Assembly (NCBI GenBank): GCA_020833005.1
Contig: JAJHRD010000008.1
Coordinates: 1 to 55,412, forward strand
Direction of reading: 5' to 3'
DNA length: 55,412 nt
Source: Candidatus Methanomethylicota archaeon
Lineage (GTDB): Archaea; Thermoproteota; Methanomethylicia; Culexarchaeales; Culexarchaeaceae
The notes under the pieces are model-generated. The model worked only from the letters and a program-made list of their open reading frames with translations. It ran no database searches and was not told the DNA's origin. Below are positions 3,488 to 48,690 of the stretch, piece after piece; positions within the stretch are counted from its first letter, which is position 1; each line of letters starts with the position of its first letter. A program made the translations under genes and the position numbers.

Positions 3488-4273
3488 ATGCGTGTAGGTA
3501 TTTCAACGCTGTTTTGTATTGGTGAGAGATTTTCTGACGTTGTGGAGCGTTTACGGACTATAGATGTTGAGCATTTGGAGGTTGTTGATGAGTGGCCTCA
3601 TGAATTCAATGATTTTAGAGTTAATTTGATTAGGAGGATTGTTGAGGAGAGGGGGTTGAGCTTATCCATTCATGCACCCTTTGCAGATGTTAATATTGCA
3701 TCGACATCTCCAACCATGAGGAACACGGCTTTGAGGAGACTTAAAAAGTCTATGAAGCTTTCAGCAAAGTTGAACCCTACAATTTGGGTTTTCCATTCAG
3801 GGGTTAGAAGCCCAATTGGTAGCATGCTTCCCAGCATGGATTGGAAGTTCAACTTGAATTCTATACGTGAATTGTTACATGAAGCTAGGAAATATGATTT
3901 GAAGATAGCTATAGAGAATTTCCCAGTATCATCCACACTTTTAGTTAGGGGAGTTGAAGATTTCGAGAAGCTTTATGGGGATTTAGGCGTTGATGCATTG
4001 GATTTGGGTATAGCATTTGATGTTGGGCATGCAAATATTGGTGGGTATATTGATAAGTTTATGGAGAAGTTTAAGGAGAGGATAATTCACGTTCACGTGC
4101 ATGATAATGATGGAAAGGTGGATTCACATTTAGGAATAGGATTTGGAAGTATAAATTGGGCTAAAGTCTTAAATTCCCTTAAGAAGATGAATTATAGAGG
4201 GGTTTTAGTAATAGAATCAATTAGCAATGTTAAAGGAAGTATTGAGAATATGAGGAAATTGATTGAGCATTAA
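3488..4273 (+). CDS. sugar phosphate isomerase/epimerase-like TIM-barrel protein
   Basis: The 261 residues fit the xylose-isomerase-like / AP endonuclease family 2 TIM barrel. Conserved metal-ligand segments appear in order: SIHAPF, AIENFP, AFDVGHAN, HVHVHDN and a C-terminal VIES. These are the usual Glu, Asp and His ligands of this superfamily, so divalent-metal-dependent isomerase, epimerase or, less likely, endonuclease IV-type activity is expected. Lengths near 260-280 are normal. A GGTG ribosome binding site lies five bases before ATG. The substrate cannot be read from the sequence. It converges on the transporter gene that follows. Confidence 0.8.
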   Translation: MRVGISTLFCIGERFSDVVERLRTIDVEHLEVVDEWPHEFNDFRVNLIRRIVEERGLSLSIHAPFADVNIASTSPTMRNTALRRLKKSMKLSAKLNPTIWVFHSGVRSPIGSMLPSMDWKFNLNSIRELLHEARKYDLKIAIENFPVSSTLLVRGVEDFEKLYGDLGVDALDLGIAFDVGHANIGGYIDKFMEKFKERIIHVHVHDNDGKVDSHLGIGFGSINWAKVLNSLKKMNYRGVLVIESISNVKGSIENMRKLIEH

Positions 4274-38879: not shown

Positions 38880-40175
38880 TTAGTTTTTAATTATCTTTAC
38901 TTTTATGGCATGTACTGAGCATGATATGCATGGATCGTAATTCCTCACTATCATCTCCACCATCAACTGTGCTTCATCCATTGGCTTGCTAATTATTTCT
39001 GGAATTTGCATTAGTATATCTTGCTCGATGTGTGCCAAGTTTTGTGTGGTTGGAGCTATTATCCTTGCCTTCTCCACGTACCCTTCACTATTTATCTCAT
39101 ATGAGTGATACAGTATCCCCCTAGGTGCTTCTGTTACTCCACATCCCCATCCAGCTTTAACTTTCCCCTCTATGTATGGCTTCTCCGGCTCTCTATATTC
39201 ATCTATAAGTCTCTCTATTTCTAATGTTGAATGATATATCTCTGCCGTCCTAGCTATTATGCTTTGATACGTATTCACTAAAGGAGCTTTAAATCCATAT
39301 GCTTCCAATACATCTCTCACCTCCCCCCTTAGAGCTTTGTAGTTATTGTTGAATCTTGCTATTGGACCAGTTACATATGCCCCCCTCCCCTTTATTCTGC
39401 ACCTTAGCGATGTGGAGTATGGTACTTGGAATTCTTCTATGTTATCTTCAAATTCTTCTTCGGATATGTTTATCCCCTTATTGGACACAATCCTTCCGCC
39501 TATGGTTGGGTATTCCCCTTCGGGGTCTTGTAGTGATAGGTATTCGTAGTCACATTTTATTTTAGGAATTTCTAGCTGGAGTATCCACTCTAATAATTCT
39601 TTTGCAATTTCTTGTTTATCTTTGCATTCCCTCTTGATGTCTTCAAGCTCTTCCCTCCTTATTATCCTGTAGAATCCTCCAATTCTGCATGAAACTGGGT
39701 GTACTGATCTTCCTCCAATTTTTTCCATAACATAGTTTCCGAAGGCTTTCAGCTTTAGTGCTTTTCTAACTATTTCCGGCTTTATTTTTGCCAATTCTAT
39801 TACGTCGTTTAGTTTCATGAAGTCTGGTGCATGTAATAGGAATACGTGTAGTGCGTGGCTGCTTATCCACTCCCCAAATAGTAATGTTTTCCTTAGATTT
39901 TGAATTTCCTTTGGAATATTTATTTCAAGTATCTTTTCCATTGCTCTGCTACTGCTGTATATGTATGGTACTGGGCATATTCCACATATTCTTGCCACAA
40001 AATCTGGTACTTCTAAATATTTTCTTCCCTTTACGAAGGCTTCGAAGAATCTTGGTGCTTCAGTTATTTCCACTTGTATCTTCTTCACATTTCCATTTTC
40101 CACTACTATCTCGACCCCCCCTTCGCCTTCCACCCTCGTTAACGGTTTTATGTTTATTTCCATAATTTTATTCAT
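38880..40175 (-). CDS. hydA: group 3b [NiFe] hydrogenase (sulfhydrogenase) alpha, large subunit
   Basis: The 431-residue large subunit has both nickel-binding motifs, RICGIC (Cys64, Cys67) near the N-terminus and DPCISCSVH (Cys416, Cys419) near the C-terminus. Nine residues follow the His and would be removed by a maturation protease. Start MNKIMEINIKPLTRVEGEG fits the family and overlaps the delta stop by eight bases. A longer frame to 40217 is possible but not family-like. With the other three subunits it couples H2 or polysulfide chemistry to NADP(H) in the cytoplasm. Maturation genes (hyp) are not in the window. Confidence 0.94.
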   Translation of the reverse strand: MNKIMEINIKPLTRVEGEGGVEIVVENGNVKKIQVEITEAPRFFEAFVKGRKYLEVPDFVARICGICPVPYIYSSSRAMEKILEINIPKEIQNLRKTLLFGEWISSHALHVFLLHAPDFMKLNDVIELAKIKPEIVRKALKLKAFGNYVMEKIGGRSVHPVSCRIGGFYRIIRREELEDIKRECKDKQEIAKELLEWILQLEIPKIKCDYEYLSLQDPEGEYPTIGGRIVSNKGINISEEEFEDNIEEFQVPYSTSLRCRIKGRGAYVTGPIARFNNNYKALRGEVRDVLEAYGFKAPLVNTYQSIIARTAEIYHSTLEIERLIDEYREPEKPYIEGKVKAGWGCGVTEAPRGILYHSYEINSEGYVEKARIIAPTTQNLAHIEQDILMQIPEIISKPMDEAQLMVEMIVRNYDPCISCSVHAIKVKIIKN

Positions 40176-40926
40176 ACTTCTCCACCACTTCCTTGAATTC
40201 TGGTCTCCAGCATTCAAATTTCTTGAATAGGAATGAGATATCCTTCTTGCTCAATTCTTTCTCCATGAATTGTTGTGCTAGTTTTGTTGTTTGTGGTAGG
40301 TCTGACGGTCCATAGCATGCGTAGCATGGTCTTTGGAAGCTTGGGCATATTGCTCCGCATCCAGCCATTACCACTGGTCCTAGGCATGGTTCCCCCTTCG
40401 CCACTAGTATACATGTATACCCCTTTATTTTGCATTGTATGCATAAGCTGTGTGTGGGTAGAAATGGTTCTCTTCCAATTATTATTTGACTTAAAACCCA
40501 TAGTAATTGCTTCCTGTTTATTGGGCATCCTCTTATTTCGAAATCAACCTTCACATGTTCTGATAGTGGTGTGGATTTCTCCAGAGCTTTTATCCATTCT
40601 GGATTTGGATATACGATCTTCTTGTATTCTTCAAGTTGAGCCCAGTTTCTAAGGGCTTGTATTCCACCTGCAGTGGCGCATGATCCTATTGCTATCAAGT
40701 ACTTTGATTCCTCCCTTATCTTATGTAATTCCTCAAGTTGTTCCGGTGTTGATACGCTCCCCTCCACGAGGGATATGTCGTATGGTCCTTTCATGAGCTT
40801 TCTTGAAGCCTCCACAAAGTATGCTATTTCAACTTTACCCGCTATCTCCAGTAGTTCTTCTTCTAGGTTTAGTAGTTCAAGTTGGCATCCGCTACAACTT
40901 GCAAATTTGAATATTGCAATTTTCAT
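40168..40926 (-). CDS. hydD: sulfhydrogenase delta, small subunit
   Basis: The 252-residue small subunit begins with CSGCQ (Cys11, Cys14), the proximal cluster ligands, and has further cysteines in IGSCATAGG, RGCPINRK, CIQCKIKGYTCI and CYGPSD for the medial and distal clusters. It passes electrons from the Ni-Fe site to the beta-gamma module. Its ATG overlaps the gamma stop as ATGA. Confidence 0.94.
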   Translation of the reverse strand: MKIAIFKFASCSGCQLELLNLEEELLEIAGKVEIAYFVEASRKLMKGPYDISLVEGSVSTPEQLEELHKIREESKYLIAIGSCATAGGIQALRNWAQLEEYKKIVYPNPEWIKALEKSTPLSEHVKVDFEIRGCPINRKQLLWVLSQIIIGREPFLPTHSLCIQCKIKGYTCILVAKGEPCLGPVVMAGCGAICPSFQRPCYACYGPSDLPQTTKLAQQFMEKELSKKDISFLFKKFECWRPEFKEVVEKYE

Positions 40927-41747
40927 ATGTATTTCACCTCGAAGTACCTCTTTATTTTTGAGTATTGGAATACTGGGCCATCTCTACATATGAAGAATGG
41001 TCCAACTTGACAGTGTCCGCATTGCCCTATACCGCATCTCATGCGCCTCTCCATGGATATGTATATTCTTGATGCATCTAGCCCCTTCTTCTCCATAAGA
41101 TCTTTCACTGTGAATTTCATCATTATTTCTGGTCCACATACCATTGCTATGGTGTTTTTCGGATTCACCTTTACTTTTGGTATTAGTGTTGTTACAACCC
41201 CCACATTCCCAGTCCATTTCTCATCCCCCTTATCCACTGTTACATGGAATTCGCAATCTTCTATTTTGCTATATTCTTCGAATTCCCTTCTGTATAGTAG
41301 GTCTTGCGGTGTTCTTGCACCATACAATATTATCAACTTACCATATTCTGATCTATTTCTCTTAACTTCCATTATTACTGGTCTTAGTGGGGCTAATCCT
41401 ATTCCGCCAGCAACTATCAGTATATCCTGCTTTCTACTTCCATTTAATGGCCATGCGTTTCCATAAGGCCCCCTTAAACCAATTATTTCTCCCTCCCTCA
41501 TTTTACTCAGCATTCTGGTTACTGCCCCAACAAACCTTATTGTGTGCATAATTTCCCCATTCTCTATTCCACTAATAGCGACTGGTATCTCTCCTCCCCC
41601 ATAAGCATAGAGTATGTTGAATTGTCCAGGAGTCCCCTTAATTTCATCTTCTAATGGCTTTATATGGTATGTGTATATGTCTTTCGTTTCCTGCGTTATC
41701 CTACTTATTAATGCTTTTTTCAGTATATATTCCTTGTAAACCATCAT
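40923..41747 (-). CDS. hydG: sulfhydrogenase gamma, FAD/NAD(P)-binding subunit
   Basis: The 274-residue protein is of the ferredoxin-NADP reductase type. FAD-binding segments (RGPYGNAWP region) precede an NAD(P)-binding GGIGLAPLRPV, and the end has CGIGQCGHCQVGPFFICRDGPVF, whose four cysteines hold a [2Fe-2S] cluster as in dihydroorotate dehydrogenase electron-transfer subunits. It starts within the beta stop (ATGA) behind GGGGGGTG. Confidence 0.94.
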   Translation of the reverse strand: MMVYKEYILKKALISRITQETKDIYTYHIKPLEDEIKGTPGQFNILYAYGGGEIPVAISGIENGEIMHTIRFVGAVTRMLSKMREGEIIGLRGPYGNAWPLNGSRKQDILIVAGGIGLAPLRPVIMEVKRNRSEYGKLIILYGARTPQDLLYRREFEEYSKIEDCEFHVTVDKGDEKWTGNVGVVTTLIPKVKVNPKNTIAMVCGPEIMMKFTVKDLMEKKGLDASRIYISMERRMRCGIGQCGHCQVGPFFICRDGPVFQYSKIKRYFEVKYI

Positions 41748-42823
41748 TTACACCCCCCAGAAGCTTTTTTAACGTTTTCCCTTATGTCTATTCCAGCTGG
41801 GCACCAAGTTATGCATCTTCCACATCCAACGCATCCAAATATGTCAAATTGCTTTTTCCAGTATGAGAATTTGTGTAGCATCCATTGTCTATACATTGCC
41901 CATATTTCAGGTCTGAAGTGTCCTCCAGCAACTTCCGCATATTTGTATGTGAAGCAGCTATCCCAGTATCTCACTCTGTCCACGTATTCGTCTAGATGTG
42001 ATTCATCATATATGTCGAAGCAGAAGCATGTTGGACATACCATTGTGCAATTTCCACATGCAAGACATTTCTCAGATAACTCTTTCCATAAGTTTTCGTT
42101 TGCAATGTTTATTTCAAGTTTTTCCGGTAGGTTTATTGTTGTGAATTGTGCTTTTGCTTTTTCATATGCTTCATCCATCAATTTGATGAATTCCGCTATA
42201 ACTTCATTTGATGCTGGTTTTAAAGTTTCCAATCCCTTCAATATTTCCTCCCCCTTAACGCTTCCAGCTTCAAATAATACTTTACCATTTATTCTTGTGT
42301 ATGCTATGTCGAAGTTTTCAGTGATTCTGGGACCTGTTCCCATCGTGGCGCAGAAGCATGTTTTCCCAGGTTTTGTGCAGTTTTCCACTATTATCGTTAT
42401 CTTCTCTCTTTGGGCATTATAGTATGCGTCTTTATTCCATGTGAACGTTTTATCCATAACTCTTATTGCTGCTGCATCGCATGGTTTTATGCCAAAAAAC
42501 ACGATTTCTTTTGGATCATAATTGTATGGTTTTATTTCAAGTCCTTTTTCTACCCTAATTATTTTTAATGTTGGTGGATGTAGATATCTCTTTGGTGAAT
42601 CGAAACCATGTCTAAAGAAGTTTCCTTGCATTAATCTGTATTTGCCAGGTTCTTGGTAATCCTCCACCCTCCTCGGTATTTCATCGTAATTATTTAATTC
42701 ACAGTATCTTATGGCGATTTCTCCATCTTGGATCTTTGGTCCTATTATCATTGCTTTACCTTTAAATTTGTTAAAGAGCGTTTTTAGATCGTTTTCAGCA
42801 CCCATCATGATGCTGCTCTTCAT
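41744..42823 (-). CDS. hydB: sulfhydrogenase beta, iron-sulfur subunit
   Basis: About 359 residues with two [4Fe-4S] motifs, CLACGNCTMVCP and CVGCGRCITWCP, and family segments FFGIKPCDAAAI and TKPGKTCFCATMGTGP. It links the hydrogenase core to the flavin subunit and in homologues contributes to sulfur reduction. AGAGGGG six bases before ATG 42823 decides the start; ATG 42844 is an alternative. First gene of the four-gene operon, with overlaps throughout. Confidence 0.93.
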   Translation of the reverse strand: MKSSIMMGAENDLKTLFNKFKGKAMIIGPKIQDGEIAIRYCELNNYDEIPRRVEDYQEPGKYRLMQGNFFRHGFDSPKRYLHPPTLKIIRVEKGLEIKPYNYDPKEIVFFGIKPCDAAAIRVMDKTFTWNKDAYYNAQREKITIIVENCTKPGKTCFCATMGTGPRITENFDIAYTRINGKVLFEAGSVKGEEILKGLETLKPASNEVIAEFIKLMDEAYEKAKAQFTTINLPEKLEINIANENLWKELSEKCLACGNCTMVCPTCFCFDIYDESHLDEYVDRVRYWDSCFTYKYAEVAGGHFRPEIWAMYRQWMLHKFSYWKKQFDIFGCVGCGRCITWCPAGIDIRENVKKASGGCK

Positions 42824-42844
42824 TGATAGCCCCTCTATTCCCAT

Positions 42845-44331: not shown

Positions 44332-45075
44332 TTATATGCTATTTTCACCATCTCTAGTTTCTTCTATCATTTGGTTTACTGTTTTTGCAATGTTTATGAT
44401 TTTTGATTCTATAGTCTTCAAATTTATTTTTAATTCTTCATGATATACTTTTGCCAAATTTCTTATAATTTTTATTTCACTCCTCATTTCTAGAAGTGTC
44501 TTCATTTTAACAGTCTTCTCTTGCATTTTATGTTTTTGAATAGCATCACCAATCTTTTCTAATCTCTTCATAAGGTTTCTCTCTAAATCTTCTATAAGTG
44601 GTTTCCCATCACTTGGATATATTAGTTTAAGTCTTGATGCACTTATAGCTCTCCCCCCATATGTTATTATCTTCCTTATTATCATGCTTGGAGAAACTAT
44701 CCTCCTCTCAATATACTTGTCGTAGTTTATGTATGGGAAGAGGTATATTAGGCTCGAAGCTTTAAAGCATGGTGATCTTTCAATCAATCTGTATATAACC
44801 CTATTGGCATTTGCATCCTCCAATGGCTCATAAGCCAATAATATCAGGCTTCCAAGATTGAATACGTTGCTCTCATAATCTATTTCCGCTCTTTCCACAC
44901 TTCTACTCGTCTTCAGAATTAGTATGCGATCCTCCTCATTAATCTTCTCTTGGAAATTTTCATCTATCCTATTTGCTATGAATAGGTGTTTTTTAAGTTT
45001 TAATGGAACCGTTTTAGATTTCCCAACTATATCGTTAATTTTCTCTTCATCACTCAATACTATGTAAAATGGCAT
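44332..45075 (-). CDS. unknown protein with C-terminal coiled coil, weakly ChrB-like
   Basis: The 247-residue protein has a mixed alpha/beta first half and a charged helical second half (about 165-240, heptad-like Leu/Ile spacing). The ANRVIYRLIERSP...SSLIYLFPYINY stretch loosely recalls the N-terminal domain of ChrB, where R-x-x-hydrophobic-W/Y-R...hydrophobic-Y-hydrophobic-LP occurs. I do not trust this enough to assign it. Codon use is mixed and differs from flanking minus-strand genes. It converges on the antiporter, seven bases apart. Confidence 0.5.
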   Translation of the reverse strand: MPFYIVLSDEEKINDIVGKSKTVPLKLKKHLFIANRIDENFQEKINEEDRILILKTSRSVERAEIDYESNVFNLGSLILLAYEPLEDANANRVIYRLIERSPCFKASSLIYLFPYINYDKYIERRIVSPSMIIRKIITYGGRAISASRLKLIYPSDGKPLIEDLERNLMKRLEKIGDAIQKHKMQEKTVKMKTLLEMRSEIKIIRNLAKVYHEELKINLKTIESKIINIAKTVNQMIEETRDGENSI

Positions 45076-45187: not shown

Positions 45188-45235
45188 TTATTTCTTCTTC
45201 TTCTTGCCCTTCTCCTCAGGCTTCTTCTCGGCCAT
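45188..45235 (-). CDS. 15-residue lysine-rich micropeptide (predicted)
   Basis: ATG 45235 to TAA 45188 encodes 15 residues, eight of them Lys and three Glu (MAEKKPEEKG then five Lys). The ATG is preceded by GGAGGTGA with five-base spacing, the best ribosome binding site in the window. It lies 51 bases after the stop of the LysW-like gene on the same strand and before a T-run terminator. I know no family. It may be a translated peptide that binds the acidic tail next door, a leader, or the remnant of a longer gene. Expression is not shown. Confidence 0.5.
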   Translation of the reverse strand: MAEKKPEEKGKKKKK

Positions 45236-45269
45236 ATTTTTCACCTCCTATAGCAGAAAAATGGGGGAG

Positions 45270-45285
45270 ATCCCCATATGGGGAT
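45270..45285. repeat. 16-base perfect palindrome between LysW-like gene and micropeptide
   Basis: ATCCCCATATGGGGAT is self-complementary and begins one base after the LysW-like stop codon. In RNA it can form a six-base-pair stem with an AUAU loop. The following C-rich and T-rich bases allow a competing GGGGA/UCCCC pairing and a weak terminator-like tail. It could be a protein-binding operator, an RNA processing site or a partial terminator. Confidence 0.7.
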
Positions 45286-45286
45286 T

Positions 45287-45553
45287 TCACCATTCCTCTT
45301 CTTCTTCTTCTTCCTCCTCTTCTTCCTCCTCCAGTTCCTCTTCTTCTTCCCACTCTTCTTCTTCCTCTAGCTCCTCCTCTCCCCACTCTTCCTCTTCTTC
45401 CTCTTCTTCCACTATTTTCAAGCTCCATCTGCGTCCCTTTTGTTCTATGGATAGTGATACTCCGCATGATGGGCACTCTATTACGTCTCCTACATGTGGC
45501 TTCTCTCCTAGGTCTATCATTTCATCGCATATTGGACATCTAGCTTTGGGCAT
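45287..45553 (-). CDS. LysW-type amino-group carrier protein with long poly-glutamate tail
   Basis: Residues 1-48 match LysW/ArgW: a zinc ribbon with CPIC (Cys6, Cys9) and CPSCG (Cys27, Cys30), VGDVIECPSCG, and a LKIVEEEE lead-out. LysW normally ends in EDWGE at about 54 residues, and its final Glu carries the growing lysine or ornithine intermediate. Here EEWGE ends at residue 59 and 29 more residues follow. The tail 49-88 has 34 Glu, with Trp57, Leu62, Trp68, Leu74 and Trp88 as spacers. Glu codons are mixed (20 GAA, 14 GAG). LysX/ArgX, LysZ and LysY are not in the window, so a role in lysine/arginine synthesis is not shown. Confidence 0.8.
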   Translation of the reverse strand: MPKARCPICDEMIDLGEKPHVGDVIECPSCGVSLSIEQKGRRWSLKIVEEEEEEEEWGEEELEEEEEWEEEEELEEEEEEEEEEEEEW

Positions 45554-45822
45554 TTTCTATACCTATTTTTAACTTAGCATTGGTATATCTAATAAGGGTT
45601 TTCACATTTTTTATTTTTCCTAATTTTACTCATTTATTCCCCCTCATTTCTATCTTTTTCCATTTTTCCTATTTCCGTTTAATGGTATTTAATTTGCTTT
45701 TTATGTATTCTCAAAACTCTCTTTTTTTCGCTTTTGCTCTTATTTTTCCTAAAGTTTTCTGTCAATTTTTGTAGAGTTTTTCTATTTTTTTCAATATATT
45801 TATCTAAAAAATATTATTTTGT
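45554..45822. other. A-rich (minus strand) intergenic region, 269 bases
   Basis: The minus strand is very rich in A and G. A GATATACC stretch about 30 bases before ATG 45553 could be the promoter of the LysW-like gene. A 14-codon frame (about 45591-45635, minus strand, starting MSKIRKNKK) follows GAGGGGGA, but nothing else supports it. No RNA gene seen. Confidence 0.35.
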
Positions 45823-47175
45823 TTATGTTGTTATTCTTATACCTTCAAACTTCACTGATGGTGCGATGAGCGTGCCTCTTTGTTTTACGTCGTCTCCTTG
45901 TGCAGCATATTTCTCTAGCATCTCTTTGAATGTTCCTGCTATCATGCAGCCTCTTAATTGTCCAGCTAATTCTCCTCTTATTATTGCATAGGATGGGTTT
46001 GCCGTTATTGAGAATGCTCCTGTGGCTATGTTTGTGCTATGGGCTCCCATTACCCCGATTACCAATACCCCCTCCTTCACTTCACCTATTAATTCTTCCA
46101 GTTTCACCTCTTTTCCGGTTATAATCATATTTCTTGGTGCAATGGATATTGGTGTTCTGAATTGTCTGAAGGCATTTCCAGTGCTTTCTCTACCTTCCCT
46201 ATGTGCTGTGTAGCTGTCGTATATGTATCCCTTCAATACTCCATTTTCGATTATTATGTTTCTTTGTGATGGTACTCCTTCGGCATCTGTTGGTGCTGTT
46301 CTCAGCCCATTTGGTATTGTGCCATCATCTATTATTGTTAGTTTTTCTGAGGCTACTTTTTCACCTACTTTCCCTGTTAAGTATGATTTCCCTTCTTGGA
46401 CGTTATATGCATCTATTGCTCTTACAAATGCATATTCCATTAGGGTTTCAAGTGCATCTGGATCGAATATAACTGTCTTTTCCCCAGATTCTATTTTTGC
46501 CACTTTGAATCCTAGTTTTGCTCTTTCAATGGCTTTTGCTAGGCATATTTTGGCATCTATCTTATTTAGTTGCCTATATGCTTCCCCCTCCCATCCCACG
46601 CTTCTAACGCCATTCTTTTCTCCTAATATTGTGACTCCCGTACTTACAGTACTCTCCTTCCAGTTTACCTCTACTCCTAGGCTATTGAATATTGCTCTCT
46701 CTGTTGATGTGAAGTTAAAGCTTGCACTTATAGTGTTGAAGTTTGGATCTTTCTCTAATCCTTCTCCAACTATTCTTCTAGCTTCATCGAATATTTCGTC
46801 TATTGGTGGATTTTCTATTGCTGGATCATATATTCCTTCAACTGTTGGGGGTTTTCTTGGTTGTGGTAGTGTTTTGAAGTCTGGGTCTGGTTCTTTAATT
46901 TTAGCGAGCTTTATTGCTGTCTTAACTGTTTCCTCTATGCTCGCCTCATCTAGTATTGTTGTGTGTGAATATGCGAAGCTTTTCCCGATGACTACCCTTA
47001 CACTTATACCCTCCACACCTTCACCTGATCCAACTCTAGTTTTTACTCCACTTACCCTATCATTGGCTGTCATTATGCTTATCCTATTGGATCTTGTGGC
47101 GTAGGCTTCTGCTTGTGATGCACCATATTTTAATGCTTTCTCCACAGCTATTTTTACTGCTTCAATGAGTTCCAT
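45823..47175 (-). CDS. tldE: TldE/PmbA family metallopeptidase partner
   Basis: The 450-residue protein is the non-catalytic partner of TldD in a heterodimeric peptidase. It has the MELIEAVKIAVEKALKYGA start, ISVRVVIGKSFAYSHT, ENGVLKGYIYDSYTA and a TGAFSITANPSYAIIRGE end. It lacks the HExxxH zinc motif, as expected for TldE. ATG 47175 overlaps the tldD stop by one base (TAATG). A longer frame to 47229 overlaps tldD and is rejected. In bacteria the pair trims unfolded peptides and microcins through a narrow tunnel. Confidence 0.92.
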   Translation of the reverse strand: MELIEAVKIAVEKALKYGASQAEAYATRSNRISIMTANDRVSGVKTRVGSGEGVEGISVRVVIGKSFAYSHTTILDEASIEETVKTAIKLAKIKEPDPDFKTLPQPRKPPTVEGIYDPAIENPPIDEIFDEARRIVGEGLEKDPNFNTISASFNFTSTERAIFNSLGVEVNWKESTVSTGVTILGEKNGVRSVGWEGEAYRQLNKIDAKICLAKAIERAKLGFKVAKIESGEKTVIFDPDALETLMEYAFVRAIDAYNVQEGKSYLTGKVGEKVASEKLTIIDDGTIPNGLRTAPTDAEGVPSQRNIIIENGVLKGYIYDSYTAHREGRESTGNAFRQFRTPISIAPRNMIITGKEVKLEELIGEVKEGVLVIGVMGAHSTNIATGAFSITANPSYAIIRGELAGQLRGCMIAGTFKEMLEKYAAQGDDVKQRGTLIAPSVKFEGIRITT

Positions 47176-48557
47176 TACCCCCTCCCTCCAACCATCATAT
47201 TCTCTATTCTCATATGTGGTCCTCCACATGTGGTTCTCATGGATTGCCCCATCTTCCCACAGAAGCTTGGGTATATATCGAAGTCTTTTGCCACTCCAGT
47301 TACATTCTTTAATGTTTCAAGTATGAATCCACTCATGCTGAAGTCTCTAAGCTTCTCCTTTATTTCTCCATTGACTATTAGGTATGCTTCTTGAGCTCCA
47401 AATTGGAATATGCCTTCAGCTGGGCTTACTTGTCCACCTCTACCACCCTTCGCATATATCCCATACTTTATGTCTTCAATTAATTCTTCGAAGCTCATGT
47501 CCCCTGGCTGGAAGAATGTGTTTGTCATTCTAACTATTGGTGGGAATCTGTAGTCTTGTGCTCTTGCATTTCCAGTTACTGGTAGACTCATTTTCCCAGC
47601 TGCTTCCCTATTGGTTAAGTATCCCTTTAAAATCCCTCTTTGTATTATGACTTTCCTTTGTGTTTTGATGCCTTCGTCATCGTATATGTCTGTTCCAAAT
47701 CTTTCTGGTATTGTGGCGTCATCTATTAGTGTTACATGTTCTGAGCCTATCTTTTCTCCAAGTTTCCCTCTTAGTATGCTTGTCCCTCTTAGTACTCCAT
47801 CGGCTTCTGATGCGTGCCCTATGGCTTCATGCGCCATTAATCCTGATAATGCTCCATCTATTACCACTGTGAATTTTCCTCCTGGTGCAGGTTTCGCTTT
47901 CAATAGTTCCATAGCCTTCCTTGCAGCTTCCATGCTTCTCTCTTCCACCTTCATTCTTTCAGTTACTTCAAATCCACCTAGCATTGCATATCTATCCCTA
48001 TATGATTGTATTAATCCTGCTTCCCTAGCGTAAGCCCATATTCCCCAGTAAACCCATGAATTTCTCATTTCCAGTTGAGTTCCATCGCTTGTGCATATGA
48101 TTTTCGTTTCTGTGTAATCGTCATAGTTTGATGTTGTCTTTATATTTGGTGATATCTTCCTTGCAGCTTCATCCGCCTTTAATAGGAACTTCATCTTTTC
48201 CTCTATTGATACTTCTTCTAGTGGTTCTTTCACTGGAGTTTTCACTTCGTCAATTACCACATTGCTTGGTGCTAGATTCATTTTTTCAGAGTCTTTGCTT
48301 GCTTGTTTAGCCATTTTTGTAGCTATGTTTAGGGCGTTTTCAAGTGATCTTTTATCGATATTGTTTGTTGTGGAGAATCCCCATGCGCCATTAAGTAGCA
48401 CTCTTATTGCAACTCCTTGCTCTATTCCAGGGGCTGCTGAAACGATCTTCCCATCTCTGATTTCGATGCTTGTGCTGTGAAACTTTTGGTATCTTGCTTC
48501 CACATATTCTCCTCCAAGTTCGCTTCCCTTACTTACCACCCATAACATTAAATCCAT
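47175..48557 (-). CDS. tldD: TldD family zinc metallopeptidase
   Basis: The 460-residue catalytic subunit has the HEAIGH zinc motif (from His243), the GVLKGYLTN-type segment (GILKGYLTNREAAGKMS), and SFCGKMGQ near the end with the additional Cys ligand. ATG 48557 fits the family start (MDLMLWVVSKGSELGGEYVEARYQ). A longer reading to 48650 starts in a lysine-rich non-family stretch. Translated with tldE through a TAATG overlap. Confidence 0.94.
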   Translation of the reverse strand: MDLMLWVVSKGSELGGEYVEARYQKFHSTSIEIRDGKIVSAAPGIEQGVAIRVLLNGAWGFSTTNNIDKRSLENALNIATKMAKQASKDSEKMNLAPSNVVIDEVKTPVKEPLEEVSIEEKMKFLLKADEAARKISPNIKTTSNYDDYTETKIICTSDGTQLEMRNSWVYWGIWAYAREAGLIQSYRDRYAMLGGFEVTERMKVEERSMEAARKAMELLKAKPAPGGKFTVVIDGALSGLMAHEAIGHASEADGVLRGTSILRGKLGEKIGSEHVTLIDDATIPERFGTDIYDDEGIKTQRKVIIQRGILKGYLTNREAAGKMSLPVTGNARAQDYRFPPIVRMTNTFFQPGDMSFEELIEDIKYGIYAKGGRGGQVSPAEGIFQFGAQEAYLIVNGEIKEKLRDFSMSGFILETLKNVTGVAKDFDIYPSFCGKMGQSMRTTCGGPHMRIENMMVGGRG

Positions 48558-48690
48558 AATGTGCGTCATCAAATCATATTTCAATTTAAATTGCTTATAA
48601 CCTTTTAGTTTCAATTTTTTGGATTTCCAGTTTTTGTCCATTAGCAACAAGTATATTTTGTGCCATTGTTTATTTATATTGTTGATTTGT

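Follow-up and report, generated by a model that had tools for sequence, protein, structure and literature searches.

A LysW-like zinc ribbon with a glutamate-tryptophan tail in Culexarchaeum: probably a lineage-specific fusion of an archaeal mini-protein usually encoded beside ABCE1

The carrier proteins LysW and ArgW accept an amino acid at the glutamate of a C-terminal EDWGE end. The locus described here raises the question of what a protein with the zinc ribbon of such carriers might do with a long tail of almost pure glutamate that closes in tryptophan. The gene lies in a 55,412-nucleotide stretch of DNA, hereafter the window, from a hot-spring, Culexarchaeum-like archaeon (Thermoproteota). 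It is a real gene of 88 residues, an ATG-initiated ORF (MPKARCPICDEMIDLGEKPHVGDVIECPSCGVSLSIEQKGRRWSLKIVEEEEEEEEWGEEELEEEEEWEEEEELEEEEEEEEEEEEEW) on the minus strand at 45287-45553; the same frame is not open on the plus strand.

The protein and its orthologues

Residues 1-50 (45404..45553, minus strand) form a zinc ribbon with two Cys pairs and a core net charge of 0. Its LysW type, proposed in the original prediction, is borne out by residues 4-39, which match the LysW zinc-ribbon domain of Pfam (PF21344) at 29.4 bits, over a cut-off of 27; in the AF2 model the core is a beta-ribbon with a pLDDT of about 92. Composition and orthologues define residues 49-88 plus the stop codon (45287..45409, minus strand) as a Glu/Trp ("EW") tail that ends EEEEW. 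The tail contains 34 Glu, 3 Trp, 2 Leu and 1 Gly, with spacers at residues 57, 62, 68, 74 and 88, and its glutamate codons are divided between GAA (20) and GAG (14). Recounting returned every one of the figures previously given for residues, spacers and codons. With a net charge of -34, the tail is predicted to be a single helix (residues 56-87 in the AF2 model); this is weak evidence, as polyglutamate is of low complexity and readily modelled as a helix.

A promoter-like stretch, GAAAACCCTTATTAGATATA (approximately 45583..45602, minus strand), is the same in three genomes and has diverged in contig L044; it is a putative promoter of the acidic gene. The upstream neighbours, also on the minus strand, are TldE (45823-47229) and TldD (47175-48650), both covered by Pfam families PF19289, PF01523 and PF19290.

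The genus of the window genome is Candidatus Culexarchaeum, whose sequences are metagenome bins or contigs throughout. The tailed gene is present in four related genomes or contigs: the window genome (G000), G001, C. nevadense (G002, contig JANZKA010000009.1) and L044. TldE lies upstream of the acidic gene in the last three as well, and not in G006, an order-level relative that has a shorter ribbon protein with a short tail ending EEEESHEKEEWL. The cores of the orthologues are 94-100% identical to that of the window. Counted from the first Glu, the tail measures 44 residues in G001, 38 in G002 and 42 in L044 (38-44 in the whole set), with differences of 2-6 residues between species. The order W-L-W-L/W-W and the final Trp are kept in all four, so the Trp/Leu spacing is indeed conserved. 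Slippage or assembly error had been envisaged in case relatives ended at WGE and tail length varied. Length does vary between species, whereas the relatives have the tail, and four independent assemblies rule out an artefact of either kind. Among other zinc-ribbon matches, one in Thermoplasmata (L046) was rejected as an orthologue because the ribbon lies within a 2073-residue protein, and those in G122 and G157 proved to be ordinary LysW adjoining LysX.

EW microproteins and the ABCE1 neighbourhood

ORFs that end in EEEEW and a stop codon were found in 108 of 398 Thermoproteota genomes; a single copy is the rule, in 106 of them, and only two have more than one match. The pattern demands four Glu and either TAA or TGA, and misses G288, where the stop is TAG; the resulting 27% is thus a lower bound, and the pattern finds no ORF in the other 73%. 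As a control, the reversed pattern matched in 8 genomes, and about 0.6 matches would be expected by chance with uniform bases. In the loci inspected, EW ORFs are stand-alone and consist of 20-55 residues of Glu and Trp. All 18 loci drawn from the match list and aligned upstream of the stop were Glu-rich ORFs with Trp spacers. Glutamate is replaced in them mainly by Asp, with different nucleotides, an observation that argues for selection at the protein level.

G000, G001 and G002 have exactly one EEEEW-stop ORF each, and in Culexarchaeum it is fused to the ribbon. The window protein fits the definition of EW (Glu-rich, Trp-spaced, ending EEEEW-stop), a likeness between tails of low complexity for which alignment cannot prove common descent and no tree placement is available. 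EW microproteins have no Pfam or NCBIfam model, the one member searched had no match in the Protein Data Bank, and no description was found in open-access papers. EW is, in sum, a widespread and apparently undescribed archaeal mini-protein, of which the tailed ribbon protein is probably a lineage-specific fusion. Viral contigs gave 20 E5W-stop matches, and the one read was the end of an ordinary 141-residue protein.

ABCE1 (RLI), the ribosome-recycling motor, adjoins the EW ORF in 12 inspected loci belonging to 10 families (L116, L133, L128, L137, L134, L141, L135, L136, L140, L146, L145 and L097). This amounts to 10 of the 16 families inspected, a proportion that is indicative, as the loci were hand-picked from the match list. 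Seven of the ABCE1 proteins were scored against the RLI equivalog and exceed its cut-off of 469 bits, at 813-909; the others were identified by reading. Under a crude random-placement model that handles relatedness roughly, adjacency in 7 of 11 families has a probability of about 1e-16. No ABCE1 was seen in the stretch read beside EW in f18, f34, f15, f31, f36 and f19, nor is there one within the window. Between EW and ABCE1, families f6, f11 and f60 have a TFS-like small zinc-ribbon protein, recognised by reading; at the threshold applied, it had no NCBIfam match. Two further arrangements, also identified by reading, may be mentioned: the order isoaspartyl peptidase, EW, ABCE1 is kept in f10 and f41 (L116, L133, L145), and in f34 and f15 (L143, L142) EW is flanked by an HTH-type regulator on one side and a PhoU-like/AbrB-type gene on the other, and not by ABCE1.

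In the ribosomal stalk, an acidic stretch closed by hydrophobic residues is a docking ligand for translational GTPases and ABCE1 (PMC6791870). C-terminal peptides of the stalk protein aP1 (SEEEALAGLSALFG, KKEEEVDLSGLSGMFGF) bind aEF1A with micromolar affinity, and aP1 structures with aABCE1 are cited in the same paper (PMC6791870). The C-terminal region of aP1 is, like EW, an acidic stretch with a hydrophobic end; however, full aP1 has a dimerisation domain, and its tail contains Leu, Phe and Gly but no Trp, whereas EW is nearly pure Glu/Trp. The C-terminal tip of bacterial SSB and the tails of phage SSB proteins are likewise acidic, with an aromatic C-terminal residue, and serve as protein-docking tips. 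The window protein shares the acidic tail closed by an aromatic residue but lacks an OB fold and any sign of DNA binding.

Our preferred reading, held tentatively and at somewhat less than even chances, is that a LysW-like zinc ribbon, freed from amino-acid biosynthesis, was joined to a member of the EW group to give a two-part protein. The EW part would be an acidic-aromatic ligand for a basic or hydrophobic groove on the translation-recycling machinery, in the manner of the acidic C-terminus of aP1; its candidate target is ABCE1 or a stalk-using factor. The Culexarchaeum zinc ribbon would anchor or present this ligand, and a co-encoded Lys-rich micropeptide, described below, might bind or mask the polyanion. 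That EW adjoins ABCE1, occurs in a single copy and closes in Trp fits a stalk-like ligand. Against this, a similar tail composition could arise independently, and adjacency is no proof of interaction. We infer that the tail is an EW member, whether by descent or by function, that the protein is expressed, what it binds and how the Lys-rich peptide acts. A more specific version is rather doubtful: in it, EW would be a core, single-copy microprotein of Thermoproteota, overlooked by annotation, that works with ABCE1 in ribosome recycling as a free mimic of the stalk tail, and in Culexarchaeum it would have moved onto an ex-carrier scaffold and been paired with the Lys-rich micropeptide.

The translation machinery of these archaea resembles that of eukaryotes. 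Recurrence of a one-copy EW of 20-55 residues next to ABCE1, in ten or more archaeal families, would make this microprotein, whose ORFs are below the usual gene-calling size, a candidate for a new part of the recycling apparatus of the ribosome. The window protein would then be a natural fusion that hints at possible EW partners, and the proposal is testable in cultured Sulfolobales.

The Lys-rich micro-ORF and the MPFYI gene

Fifty bases past the stop of the acidic gene, beyond a short inverted repeat, lies a Lys-rich micro-ORF, MAEKKPEEKGKKKKK (45188..45235, minus strand), and the MPFYI gene then follows. The inverted repeat, ATCCCCATATGGGGAT (approximately 45269..45284, minus strand), was read by eye between the two ORFs and is a possible terminator or attenuator; G001 and L044 keep the hairpin in a different sequence. 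Six nucleotides upstream of the micro-ORF is the Shine-Dalgarno sequence GGAGGTG (45242..45248, minus strand), and a search of six genomes for this element plus start, allowing up to 3 mismatches, returned only the window and the equivalent site of G001. The micro-ORF is conserved in G001 (MAEKKPEKKGKKKK) and L044 (MAEKKPEEKKPKKKK); in G002 the Lys-rich frame is kept, but the Shine-Dalgarno and the ATG are lost (the start is ACG).

Differently spelled versions occur in G006, G067, G088 and G040. In G006, MAEEKKRKKRKRKPQ comes directly after the ribbon protein and is followed by a broken MPFYI gene. G067, from another class, has the order ribbon protein (..EEEEDLF), MSCAEKKEEKKEEKKEKKKKKK, MPFYI, spanning two overlapping contigs. 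In G088, where both MPFYI and the Lys-rich ORF persist, the ribbon gene is a Cys-less remnant (L092, about 3978-4115) beside the intact micro-ORF. Overall, a Lys-rich micro-ORF adjoins the acidic protein in f1, f3, f16 and f10. A phylum-wide micro-ORF family was considered and rejected, as matches to a pattern anchored on the Shine-Dalgarno are confined to G000, G001 and two other genomes; the pattern is strict and misses known members.

The MPFYI gene (44332..45075, minus strand) encodes 247 residues and has no Pfam or NCBIfam family. Members of the MPFYI family are about 250 residues long, with GSLIVLAY and RSPC..SVYAFP motifs and a C-terminal coiled coil, and are scattered over f1, f3, f10, f16, f19 and f32 of Thermoproteota; a profile (alignment A8, 11 members) gives 18 convincing loci in 17 genomes. 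The protein has a pI of 9.2, an AF2 model with a pLDDT of 54, no PDB relative by profile and a weak Cas2 match (16.4 bits against a cut-off of 23.8). In contrast to the ribbon core, its window and L044 versions share only 60% identity. Broken copies with in-frame stops and frameshifts are found at L056 1643-2357 (G006) and G040:C11:170670-171404.

An EW ORF or ribbon fusion lies within about 350 nt of MPFYI in G000, G001, G002, G084, G126, G220, G230 and G288 and at both G040 copies. EW-MPFYI linkage spans three family-level groups, that of the window among them (f1, f10 with two copies, and f19), and adjacency by family has a probability of about 7e-9 under the same crude random-placement model, relatedness again being roughly handled. 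In five f19-g50 genomes a convergent small EW ORF, for example MSRRKTPPKEEEEEEEEEWEDWGEEEEEWEEEEEWEEEEEEW, is found beside MPFYI-family genes. G040 has three EW ORFs, two of which adjoin MPFYI and one ABCE1. At one of its copies, EW, a Lys-rich peptide and a zinc ribbon are each encoded by an ORF of their own, one after the other, and this row is the unfused counterpart of the window arrangement, though the zinc ribbon is of another kind. The ribbon fusion and the oppositely charged micro-ORF suggest that anchoring and masking may operate in Culexarchaeum.

The same neighbourhood admits a different explanation, namely that the tail is an electrostatic scaffold or nucleic-acid mimic outside translation. 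As a polyanion, it would bind a DNA- or RNA-handling partner, perhaps the basic MPFYI protein or the Lys-rich peptide, and keep it off nucleic acid. An acidic scaffold was rightly among the options of the original prediction. The charge and the predicted single helix of the tail, its tight linkage to MPFYI and the Lys-rich ORF in several families, and the TFS-like gene beside EW in f6, f11 and f60 all agree with such a role. However, most inspected stand-alone EW genes adjoin ABCE1 instead, and MPFYI genes in G049, G371 and G103/G146/G270 have no EW nearby. We consider this scaffold somewhat unlikely.

Selection on the tail and the fate of the carrier function

Another explanation is neutral: slippage would have lengthened a short, functionless tail by GAR-repeat expansion, and the likeness to EW would be convergent. 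The short tail of G006 and the length differences between species are in line with this idea. Random purine codons of the same composition, however, would give Glu only a quarter of the time, so the tail is not due to chance. Pairwise comparison of the tail codons of the four orthologues gives 4-10 synonymous against 1-2 non-synonymous changes, in an alignment that is itself ambiguous. In-frame length changes combined with almost purely synonymous substitutions indicate that the tail is under selection at the protein level, as originally claimed. The maintenance of the W/L order and terminal Trp, and the occurrence of one EW per genome across the phylum, also speak against neutral expansion, which we regard as improbable.

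The window protein is probably not the lysine-making carrier that it resembles. It shares with LysW/ArgW a core that passes Pfam Zn_ribbon_LysW and an acidic C-terminal part with Trp, but lacks the C-terminal Glu, extends 29 residues past WGE and belongs to a genome without LysX/ArgX. Carrier models score below cut-off (NF041070, 43.1 against 75 for the core; TIGR01206 likewise). Of 61 relatives, 43 have a LysX_arch match over the cut-off, as a rule directly beside LysW; none of G000, G001 (99% complete, best E 5.9e-11) and G002 does, nor was LysX found in G006 (76% complete). The top ligase match in G000 is MptN/RimK-like, and LysK is below cut-off too. The WGE motif is private to the window genome: orthologues have WEE, relatives from outside the order align there as DWGE or DWGQ, and every orthologue ends EEEEW. 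Since the loading enzyme and a conserved site are both lacking, a carrier with many glutamate sites and a pre-protein trimmed after WGE, both put forward in the original prediction, are disfavoured, and a working carrier of either kind is highly improbable.

FYDLN_acid proteins (PF09538, TIGR02300) also have an N-terminal zinc ribbon followed by an acidic low-complexity tail. The Pfam match (26 bits, over a cut-off of 23.9) takes in the acidic stretch and probably reflects composition, and TIGR02300 is far below cut-off (15.2 against 41.65).

A ribosomal-peptide precursor, with the conserved ribbon as leader and the Glu/Trp tail as a core that TldD/TldE, encoded directly upstream, would process, is scarcely credible. 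TldD/E do not adjoin the gene in G006 or EW in the stand-alone loci read, the acidic gene has a promoter-like stretch to itself, and no maturase was recognised among the window ORFs read.

Elsewhere in the window, a hydrogenase cluster of the sulfhydrogenase type (38880-42844, minus strand) comprises NiFe large, small, FAD/FeS and 4Fe-4S subunits, identified partly by reading.
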